Assembly: GCF_000007345.1 (NCBI RefSeq)
Contig: NC_003552.1
Span: 1,364,001 to 1,428,000, forward strand
Source of the DNA: Methanosarcina acetivorans C2A
GTDB taxonomy: Archaea; Halobacteriota; Methanosarcinia; Methanosarcinales; Methanosarcinaceae
Direction of reading: 5' to 3'
DNA: 64,000 nucleotides
Both the position numbers and the translations under genes were made by a program. Position 1 is the stretch's first letter. Each line of letters starts with the position of its first letter. The notes beneath the pieces were generated by a model. The model searched no databases, was not told the DNA's origin, and saw only the letters and a program-made list of their open reading frames with translations. Below, piece by piece: positions 44,730 through 48,254 of this stretch.

Positions 44730-45869
44730 TTAACTCCTATCCAACATTCCAAGATATTCTTTACATATTCTTTCGTCTTCAAATTTTTTAATTTCCTTCT
44801 TATTGTACTCTGTAAAATTAATTTTAAGTTGATTGTCTTGCTCGAATTTATTTATCATCCCAGCCAAAGTTTCAACGTCTCCATAACGAACAAGATATCC
44901 ATTCTTTCCTTCTTTTATAAAATCAACCTGACCACCGTTATCAGTTGAAATTATTGGAAGACCAACCTGCATAGCCTCTTGCAAAACGATCCCGAACCCT
45001 TCATGTACTGAAGAAAGCACGTAAATATCAGAGTTTTGAAGGTATTGAAACTTCTCGATTTCTGAAACAAATCCTAAAAAATGAATTCTGTCTGAAATAT
45101 TCAATTCTTCAGCTAAATTAGCCAGATTCTCTTTTTCGGGGCCTTCTCCAATAATCAACGCATGAACATTATCAGGAGTGTTTTTTATAGCTTTAATCAA
45201 AAAATCAAAGCCTTTTCTTTTCACCAATCTCCCCACACTTATAGTATAAAATAAATTCTCATCCAATCCCAATCCCTTGCGGTTGATTTTTTCAAACATA
45301 ATAGGCTCGTAAGCTAAAGGAATAATGTTTATGTCTTTTTCAATATTATAGTATTTTAATGCATTATCTTTAATATCCGATGATTCAGCGACAACATATC
45401 TTGAATTACTTAATACCCATTCTACAATTTTCTTTAAGTACCATTTTTTGTGAGGAGAATAACTTTTGGAAGGGTCGTAGATATCTCCTCCATATATGGA
45501 TAGAATATTCTGCAGGTTAAATTTACGAGATATCCAGATTCCCAGGGGTCCGCTCGGAACAGCAAAATGAGTGTTAATAAACGAATACTGATTTATTTTG
45601 CACAGTTTGCAAGTTTTTGTGTAAGCTAAAAAAGGGAAACTGACCATAGAAGGAAGTGTAGCAGTAGATAGTTCTTTTCGCCCGATGACATTAACTCTAT
45701 AAACATTAATTCCATCAACATTTTCATAATTTTTTAAGCCATTGAATCCGGTTGTAACATAATCAACCTGATAACCAAGTTTAATAAAACCTTCTGCAAG
45801 TTTTTTGGCAGCAACCCCTCCTCCACCCCCCAGCGGAGGGAACTCGTAATTTAACATTAAAATCCTCAT
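44730..45869 (-). CDS. GT4-family glycosyltransferase
   Basis: 379 residues. N-terminus MRILMLNYEFPPLGGGGGVAA with the acceptor-side glycine loop; C-terminal VGRLVKRKGFDFLIKAI and SSVHEGFGIVLQEAMQVGLPIIST donor block. Starts at the ATG that overlaps the GT2 stop (ATGA). With GT2 and the epimerase it forms a three-gene minus-strand operon. Donor and acceptor unknown. Confidence 0.88.
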   Translation of the reverse strand: MRILMLNYEFPPLGGGGGVAAKKLAEGFIKLGYQVDYVTTGFNGLKNYENVDGINVYRVNVIGRKELSTATLPSMVSFPFLAYTKTCKLCKINQYSFINTHFAVPSGPLGIWISRKFNLQNILSIYGGDIYDPSKSYSPHKKWYLKKIVEWVLSNSRYVVAESSDIKDNALKYYNIEKDINIIPLAYEPIMFEKINRKGLGLDENLFYTISVGRLVKRKGFDFLIKAIKNTPDNVHALIIGEGPEKENLANLAEELNISDRIHFLGFVSEIEKFQYLQNSDIYVLSSVHEGFGIVLQEAMQVGLPIISTDNGGQVDFIKEGKNGYLVRYGDVETLAGMINKFEQDNQLKINFTEYNKKEIKKFEDERICKEYLGMLDRS

Positions 45870-46810
45870 TCAATGATCCTCTCGACAAGGTAATTCTTCC
45901 GTCCATTCTGGCCATAGTATATCTTTACCAAAATATCTGCAAGAATACCAATAGTAAAAAATTGTATGCCTATAACCAGGGACATAACACTAACTGTAAA
46001 TAACGGCCTGTCGGTAATCCCGATTCCATAAAATAATCTTAAAATAACTATATACAAGGAAACGATTCCACCAAAAAAGCTCAAAACAATTCCCATGCTT
46101 CCGAAAATATGGATTGGCCTCAGGGAATATTTCTGCCAGAAAGTTACAACCAGAAGGTCAAGGAAACCTTTAACAATTCTTTTCCAGTCATATTTTGTTT
46201 TCCCATATTTTCTCTCCCTGTGATTCGTTTTTATTTCTCCTATTCGATATCCTTTCCAGGAAAGCATGGCGGGGATGTATCTGTGCAGTTCTCCGTATAG
46301 TTCCAGGTCTTCGGTGCTTTCTTTCACATAAGCTCGTAGAGTGCAACCGGAATCATGAATAGTTTCTCCTGTAAATCTCGTTCTTAGCCGATTTGCAAAC
46401 TTTGAAACAAACTTTTTTGAAAGGGGGTCCTTTCGATCAAATCTCCATCCACAGACAACATCAAGATCTTCTTTTTCGAGTTTTTCCAGCAATTTCGGGA
46501 TATCTTTCGGGTCGTTTTGGAGGTCCGCATCCATTGTAACAATTATTCTGCCTGCGGCGTGATCAAGCCCGGCTCTTAAGGCTGCGCTCTGCCCGAAGTT
46601 TTTCCTAAACTTAATAACTTTCAACTTATTATCATTTTTGCTAAGGTTCTGAAGCTCCTTAAAAGTAGAATCTTTTGAACCGTCATCCACAAAAATTATT
46701 TCGTAATTAATCCCGAGAGGCTCAAGGGCAGATGTGATTTCCCTGTAGCAGGGTTCGATATTTTCTTCTTCATTATAAGCGGGAATCACAACTGAGAGTT
46801 CGAGATCCAT
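45866..46810 (-). CDS. GT2 polyprenyl-phosphate glycosyltransferase (DPM1/GtrB-like)
   Basis: 314 residues. GT-A domain with VVIPAYNEEENI, FVDDGSKDST, the TMDADLQNDP metal-binding DxD region and the HRERKYGKTKYDW C-terminal motif, followed by two transmembrane segments (about 230-255 and 268-290). This architecture usually transfers a sugar from a nucleotide donor to dolichyl or undecaprenyl phosphate, providing donors for membrane GT-C enzymes. It overlaps the epimerase gene by 25 bases upstream and the GT4 by four bases downstream. Confidence 0.9.
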   Translation of the reverse strand: MDLELSVVIPAYNEEENIEPCYREITSALEPLGINYEIIFVDDGSKDSTFKELQNLSKNDNKLKVIKFRKNFGQSAALRAGLDHAAGRIIVTMDADLQNDPKDIPKLLEKLEKEDLDVVCGWRFDRKDPLSKKFVSKFANRLRTRFTGETIHDSGCTLRAYVKESTEDLELYGELHRYIPAMLSWKGYRIGEIKTNHRERKYGKTKYDWKRIVKGFLDLLVVTFWQKYSLRPIHIFGSMGIVLSFFGGIVSLYIVILRLFYGIGITDRPLFTVSVMSLVIGIQFFTIGILADILVKIYYGQNGRKNYLVERIIE

Positions 46811-47721
46811 TTTGCATACCTCTCAAGACCATCTTCTATCGTTACTTCAGGTTTCCACCCGATCTCCTTCCATGCTTTTTTAGAATTTGACAGAGTGTGT
46901 TCTGCGTCTCCTTTCATAGAATCCGTGTAAACAATTTCCGATTCGCTTTCGTTGATCTCAATAATTTTCGAGGCAAGTTCATTGATGGTGATAGAATGCC
47001 CGCTACCAATATTGTAAACATCGCTGCCTTTTTTCATGCAGATCAGGTTTGCCCTCACGATGTCATCAATATAGGTGAAATCCCTGGTTTTTTTTCCATC
47101 TCCGAAAATGGCGACTGTTTCATTCTTCAGGGCGGCTTTAGTAAAAATGTTGATTGCAAGGTCCGGTCTCATCCTTGGTCCGTAAACCGTAAAATAGCGC
47201 AGAGATACACTTTTTAAGCCATAGAGTTCCTCAAAAACCCTACAGTAATGTTCGGCCAGCAGTTTTGAAACTCCATAAGGTGATACTGGATGGTTGGGAT
47301 GGTTTTCATCAAAAGGGAGATATTCCACTTTTCCGTAAACTGAAGATGAAGAGGCATTAATAATTTTCTTAACATTGGAATTAAGGGTAGCTTCCAGTAA
47401 ATTTAGAGTACCTGTCGCGTTAATTTCATGAGGTCTCATGGGTTCTTTAACTGATATTCTGATGCCTGCCTGGGCAGCCTCATGAAAAACGTAATCAACT
47501 GTCTGGACAATTTCTTCCAAAAGAACTTTATCTCTAATATCTCCTTCGATGAGCTGAAAGTTTTCATTCTCCAGAAAAAGTTCCACATTATTTCTTTTTA
47601 TTTGAGGATCGTAATAATTATCAAAATTATCCAAACATATGACTTCGTTGCCTTCACCAAGCAATTTCTCTATCAAATGGGAACCAATAAAGCCTGCTCC
47701 GCCAGTTACTAAGATATTTAT
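46786..47721 (-). CDS. NAD-dependent UDP-sugar 4-epimerase, apparent ATA start codon
   Basis: Short-chain epimerase of the GalE/WbpP type: the Rossmann motif GGAGFIGSH lies at the very N-terminus, then CLDNFDNYYDP, the catalytic SSSVYG and YGVSK (Tyr, Lys), and TRDFTYIDDIV. The longest frame with a standard start (TTG at 47676) would lack the NAD-binding GxGxxG and so is not the real start. Reading upstream in frame gives ILVTGGAGFIGSHLIEKLL, preceded by N and then ATA at 47719-47721; no ATG, GTG or TTG occurs before the stop. GGGGT lies 7 bases before the ATA. Most likely an ATG mutated to ATA, either a weak start or a silenced gene. About 311 residues. Confidence 0.82.
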   Translation of the reverse strand: MNILVTGGAGFIGSHLIEKLLGEGNEVICLDNFDNYYDPQIKRNNVELFLENENFQLIEGDIRDKVLLEEIVQTVDYVFHEAAQAGIRISVKEPMRPHEINATGTLNLLEATLNSNVKKIINASSSSVYGKVEYLPFDENHPNHPVSPYGVSKLLAEHYCRVFEELYGLKSVSLRYFTVYGPRMRPDLAINIFTKAALKNETVAIFGDGKKTRDFTYIDDIVRANLICMKKGSDVYNIGSGHSITINELASKIIEINESESEIVYTDSMKGDAEHTLSNSKKAWKEIGWKPEVTIEDGLERYAKWISNSQL

Positions 47722-48254
47722 GATTGATACCCCTATTTAGATATTTTTTTCTTTTTAGAGTTTAAATACCACATTCGTGTTCATATCCAAAATCTGAGAT
47801 TTTTTAATGAATAATTCTACAGGAAAGTTCTTTTTACAGGTTTTTTCTACTTGTTGAAGGTCAAATGCCATATAAAGCTTTTTTCTTATCGAGCCTATCC
47901 CAAAAACCATTTCACTTTTACCAGTTAATAATTTCTATAACTGTTTTCATGAACAGAAATTGAACGATTATTCAGCATGTACGGTTCAGGAGCAAATTCT
48001 AAGTTTCAGGATGAACTCATTTAATTATTTTCAGATTTTTTCCCGTCAATTTGTTCCAATTGCAGCGTTTTTAGCGTTTATCGAGGACTAAGTCATTTTT
48101 ACATATAAAATAACTTTATTTTTGACTTCGTATGTCTCCACATATGCAGCAATTACATCTGTATCAATCTCTCCTGGTAAGGGCCGGAACCAACTTTTTC
48201 TCATGTCGCTGTTCTATTGTAATAGTGAAATGTTCTATTAATAATGGAAACTAG
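47722..48254. other. 533-base spacer
   Basis: AT-rich, no supported gene. It carries the upstream region of the epimerase-GT2-GT4 operon (ribosome-binding site AGGGG at 47729-47733) and T-rich sequence past the end of the next leftward gene. Nothing else recognised. Confidence 0.45.

Follow-up and report, generated by a model that had tools for sequence, protein, structure and literature searches.

A conserved ATA codon as the probable translation start of a sugar epimerase-like gene in Methanosarcina acetivorans

Conserved AUA starts located behind extended Shine-Dalgarno motifs have been described at infC and ccpN of Staphylococcus aureus, with support from ribosome profiling (PMC13009471). 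Non-canonical starts tested in this bacterium gave about 10-30% of the output of AUG, and about 10% in poor medium (PMC13009471). For archaea, one report describes proofreading by aIF1, which favours discrimination against non-canonical starts (PMC6237735). Another indicates that Haloferax without KsgA makes more protein from genes with non-AUG starts (PMC7897474). A natural archaeal AUA start was not found in the open-access literature searched.

The gene described here lies in a window of 64,000 nucleotides of Methanosarcina acetivorans C2A (bases 1364001-1428000 of the single-contig genome of 5,751,492 bases, G000:C1). It was compared with the syntenic orthologues of two further Methanosarcina species, G006 and G020. 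Like infC and ccpN, this epimerase gene has a conserved AUA at normal distance from a strong Shine-Dalgarno element. The sequence features of the infC/ccpN type were all found: a non-standard codon at the Met site, conserved under purifying selection, a strong Shine-Dalgarno element at a spacing of 7 and no working alternative standard start. The S. aureus genes differ in being bacterial, IF3-controlled and regulatory or translation-factor genes, whereas the epimerase is an archaeal metabolic gene. The discriminating factor in archaea is aIF1, as against IF3 for infC and ccpN. With archaeal start selection through aIF1 and KsgA/Dim1, the locus would share stabilisation of the complex by Shine-Dalgarno pairing (PMC6237735, PMC7897474). 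Because conserved AUA starts are already known in bacteria, the kind of feature is a known one; its recurrence in Methanosarcina is the more interesting part.

The epimerase gene and its start region

The epimerase is the first gene of the cluster epimerase-GT2-GT4, in which the genes overlap.

46786-47721, minus strand: epimerase-like coding sequence, 311 codons; Pfam Epimerase and GDP_Man_Dehyd; dN about 0.07, dS about 0.5
45866-46810, minus strand: GT2 glycosyltransferase, next operon gene; ATG start inside the epimerase frame; syntenic in three species
44730-45869, minus strand: GT4 glycosyltransferase, third operon gene; 4-base overlap; syntenic in three species

The order GT2-GT4-gap-epimerase-GT2-GT4 was common to this genome, G020 and G006. 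By its motifs the protein is an extended short-chain dehydrogenase/reductase of the sugar epimerase branch. The translation carries TGGAGFIGSH (GxxGxxG, near the N-terminus) and SPYGVSKL (YxxxK), which are the motifs of a working enzyme. PF01370 and PF16363 (Epimerase and GDP_Man_Dehyd) scored 210.8 and 225.5 bits, with the whole profiles covered from position 1. The best solved relative was 4ZRM, a UDP-glucose 4-epimerase, to which the match is nearly full-length from Met1 (query residues 1-304) and shares both motifs; Met1 of 4ZRM aligns with the ATA codon. The protein differs from GalE in scoring below the NCBIfam equivalog cut-offs (184.5 bits for TIGR01179 against 262.3).

The features of the start region are as follows.

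47737-47739, minus strand: TAA, upstream in-frame stop, kept in all three species
47729-47733, minus strand: GGGGT, the core of Shine-Dalgarno element AGGGGTATC, whose duplex with the 16S rRNA 3' end has about -8.7 kcal/mol
47713-47733, minus strand: invariant translation-initiation block GGGGTATCAATCATAAATATC, 21/21 identical in three species
47719-47721, minus strand: ATA, proposed Met start, invariant in three species, aligned to Met1 of 4ZRM
47674-47676, minus strand: TTG, the first standard start codon in frame but not used as such; the orthologues have CTA and ATA
47868-47877, minus strand: candidate TATA box CTTTATATGG, read from the sequence

Read directly 5' to 3' on the minus strand, the TAA (47739-47737) is followed by ATA GGG GTA TCA ATC and then by the ATA at 47721-47719. 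The codons after it, AAT ATC TTA GTA ACT GGC GGA GCA GGC, encode NILVTGGAG. The initial annotation had claimed that the frame holds no ATG, GTG or TTG between the in-frame stop and the NAD-binding motif, that its first standard start is TTG 47676, and that ATA stands at the expected Met site with GGGGT 7 bases before it. Direct reading bore this out in full, with exactly 7 bases between GGGGT (47733-47729) and the ATA. Use of the TTG would drop TGGAGFIGSH.

A second ATA (47736-47734) directly follows the TAA. It was ruled out as the start because the two orthologues carry GCA and ACA there.

From the candidate TATA box, which is resembled by CTTTATATAT in G020, the leader would be roughly 120-130 bases long. 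Positions 47740-48254 of the window, about 500 bases, are noncoding DNA 5' of the epimerase and could not be aligned with the corresponding gaps of the sister species, which measure 700-1450 bases.

Conservation of the start region in three species

The initial annotation had proposed comparison of the codon in related Methanosarcina genomes, and the ATA proved identical in the syntenic orthologues of both species (87% and 85% protein identity for G020 and G006). The stretch TAA NNA GGG GTA TCA ATC ATA AAT ATC was exact in the three genomes. Thus TAA-NNA-GGGGTATCAATC-ATA-AATATC is the same in three species, and the noncoding DNA beyond about 25 bases upstream is unalignable. The first 17 bases of GGGGTATCAATCATAAATATC gave zero-mismatch matches only at the epimerase locus of three genomes of the genus, and this ATA start is known from these three species only.

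Over the whole gene, pairwise dS was 0.48-0.52 and dN 0.067-0.076. The dN/dS was about 0.14, and at dS 0.5 the gene is without stop or frameshift. Within codons 2-15, six codons vary among the three species and each change is synonymous, which argues that the N-terminal motif is translated. Codon 16, the TTG of the initial annotation, is TTG, CTA or ATA. At fourfold sites, 65% of positions were unchanged in all three species, so that a single base has a chance of about 0.65 of being conserved. The ATA codon taken alone is therefore weak evidence. At the same rate, 21 consecutive unchanged bases have a chance of about 1e-4, and the argument rests on the whole invariant block together with the synonymous-only N-terminus. 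No hairpin around the start was consistent among the three species.

A standard start lies upstream of the motif in all 71 motif-aligned homologues from other organisms, and in 34 of the 71 an ATG stands exactly at the ATA position. Among four further Methanosarcina species, the closest homologues (68-77% identity) have ATG at or near the ATA site. In the tree, the ATA group forms a single branch inside the ATG-starting homologues (support 91/88). This fits one ATG-to-ATA change in the ancestor of the three Methanosarcina species, which would have been kept since.

Proposed initiation at the AUA codon and alternative explanations

The gene is in all likelihood intact and translated from the AUA at 47719-47721 by Met-tRNAi with assistance from the Shine-Dalgarno element, probably with low output. 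The rare AUA initiation that the initial annotation had offered as one reading is supported by the identical ATA and ribosome-binding context in three species at dS about 0.5. It gains further support from the synonymous-only changes in codons 2-15 and from ATA in place of ATG in the methionine aminopeptidase of two species (see below). Base pairing between AGGGGUAUC and the 3' end of the 16S rRNA, GGATCACCTCCT, which is present in three rRNA copies of the genome, would position the 30S subunit. The predicted duplex, at a spacing of 7, is stronger than that of 75% of 303 genes. The ordinary initiator Met-tRNA (CAU anticodon) would engage AUA with a third-position mismatch. In the genome 52 tRNA matches were found; no UAU anticodon was present among the tRNA genes read by ARAGORN, a partial tRNA list, and two identical CAU tRNAs have initiator-type GGG/CCC anticodon stems. 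For these reasons AUA is most likely read by the ordinary initiator tRNA. The protein would begin Met-Asn-Ile-Leu-Val-Thr-Gly-Gly, and the N-terminal peptide expected under AUA initiation is MNILVTGGAGFIGSHLIEK or NILVTGGAGFIGSHLIEK.

We infer initiation at the AUA itself, its low efficiency and a regulatory purpose. A low, fidelity-sensitive output is most likely in view of the AUA starts of S. aureus and the archaeal aIF1 and KsgA reports. The most likely reason for the ATA would be a low, tightly set output of the glycosylation operon epimerase-GT2-GT4.

A recently silenced gene was the other reading of the initial annotation, which had also pointed to base-calling error at 47719. That ATG was lost recently or misread could be argued from ATG being usual in related genes and only one transition away from ATA. 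The same ATA in three separately assembled species, the identical block, the synonymous-only codons 2-15 and a frame kept open at dS about 0.5 with dN/dS about 0.14 refute both readings, and either event is highly improbable. Initiation at an internal TTG (codon 16 or 20), yielding a shortened enzyme, could draw on the TTG at codon 20, which is common to the three species. Such a product would be missing the stretch NILVTGGAGFIGSH, and with it the first strand and GxxGxxG, although codons 2-15 are constrained at the amino-acid level. The Pfam Epimerase score drops from 211 to 177 bits if the TTG start is taken, a Shine-Dalgarno element was found for neither TTG, and translation from TTG 47676 is refuted by CTA and ATA in the orthologues; an internal start is scarcely credible. 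The three-species conservation and the synonymous-only N-terminus thus dispose of silenced gene, sequencing error and internal start together, and the ATA very probably reflects genuine biology, with neither gene decay nor an error of sequencing behind it.

Start at another non-standard codon just upstream is improbable. The AUC at -1 (47722-47724) is invariant in the three species and is the sole other conserved upstream candidate, and AUC apparently serves as start of a cytochrome c gene. It lies only 4 bases from GGGGT, as against 7 for the ATA, and it is the ATA that matches Met1 of the homologues and corresponds to ATG in 34 of the 71. It is extremely unlikely that the N-terminus arises by frameshifting from an upstream frame, by reinitiation after a leader ORF or by RNA editing. 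Short ORFs can occur in leaders, but nothing specific favours these routes and the three species share no conserved leader ORF. Read by eye in this genome, one of the alternative frames is interrupted by a TAG immediately before GGGG and by a TAA that overlaps the ATA, and the other is without a start codon past its last stop.

Apparent near-cognate starts at other Methanosarcina genes

About 0.8 Mb of this genome was surveyed against 0.8 Mb of G006. Of the 50 pairs that a first filter picked out, most were antisense frames or ribosome-binding regions kept by conservation. After sorting by hand, the epimerase alone among the 133 orthologue pairs first compared with G006 combined lack of a shared standard start, third-position-type divergence upstream of the first start and lack of another explanation such as a frameshift or antisense ORF. 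A synonymous-only filter applied to 375 non-nested orthologue pairs left eight entries, some genes being counted for both genomes. These include the epimerase, an MtmB-like gene, methionine aminopeptidase and a major-facilitator transporter; 186303-187694 also passed. The entry at 171197-171964, whose protein we take to resemble the monomethylamine methyltransferase MtmB, was rejected as an unusual start: the TAG before it is a known in-frame UAG (pyrrolysine), which explains the open upstream frame and makes the gene a positive control. The entry at 1374364-1375692 was also set aside, as the copy in G006 seems to be truncated or broken. One more candidate looked at was 1221139-1222371. The cytochrome c, hydrogenase, bactofilin-like and MMPL cases listed below came from a scan of this genome alone.

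L273 (G006) and L279 (G024), for comparison G000:C1:256286-257194, minus strand: methionine aminopeptidase
G000:C1:200755-201399, plus strand: membrane cytochrome c gene (L205; also L206-L212)
G000:C1:1355247 (ORF 1355217-1356452), plus strand: NiFe hydrogenase small subunit (L224-L229)
G000:C1:145270-146448, minus strand: bactofilin-like gene (L242-L249)
G000:C1:343088-345448, minus strand: MMPL transporter (L234-L241)
G000:C1:201869-203272, minus strand: major-facilitator transporter, plus the G006 orthologue

The type II methionine aminopeptidase, a family named from sequence without a profile search, has ATG in 24 of the 26 species read; in G006 and G024 the corresponding codon is ATA. In these two, GGTGGGGTTAAT or GGAGGGGTTAAT precedes the ATA and no other in-frame standard start is nearby; the gene gave a single match in each and is the only type II copy found there. 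This exchange of ATA for ATG, seen in the sequences themselves, gives the strongest independent indication that Methanosarcina can begin translation at AUA.

In seven species the membrane cytochrome c gene apparently starts with an ATC that follows GGGGG(T); in G006 this codon is ATG. For the NiFe hydrogenase small subunit (VhtG-like, Tat signal), an apparent ACG start in five species corresponds to ATG in G006; a downstream ATG is also present, which leaves some doubt on the ACG. The bactofilin-like gene has an apparent ATC start in five species; two others, which differ by one base, have a GTG in frame a little further upstream. The MMPL transporter has a conserved apparent ATT start, in 6 of the 8 species read. 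The ATT is overlapped by a six-codon ORF, likewise conserved, in another frame (ATGAGGGGAATCCACTATTAA in L235); the overlapping out-of-frame ATG makes the ATT start ambiguous, and in two species this ATG stands in frame. Near its N-terminus the major-facilitator transporter has ATA in G006 as against ATG here; upstream there is no standard start, and the context is ambiguous. Nearly all the near-cognate starts lie behind Shine-Dalgarno sequences of more than average strength; those from the scan of this genome, MMPL excepted, have duplexes stronger than those of 73-98% of 303 genes. Taking together the epimerase operon, methionine aminopeptidase, cytochrome c and the NiFe hydrogenase small subunit, it may tentatively be suggested, at somewhat less than even chance, that near-cognate starts (AUA, AUC, ACG, perhaps AUU) preceded by strong Shine-Dalgarno elements are a regular, conserved form of translational control in Methanosarcina metabolic genes, tuned through aIF1 and 30S fidelity.

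Annotation pipelines generally take only ATG, GTG and TTG, and genes with AUA starts are consequently cut short or recorded as broken. With a natural AUA start in an archaeon that is genetically tractable, the stringency of start-codon choice in archaea could be measured directly in the cell. Matched ATG/ATA pairs are supplied by the sister species and the other genes. Methionine aminopeptidase, whose sole copy of its type begins with ATA in two species and with ATG in the others, provides a natural experiment.
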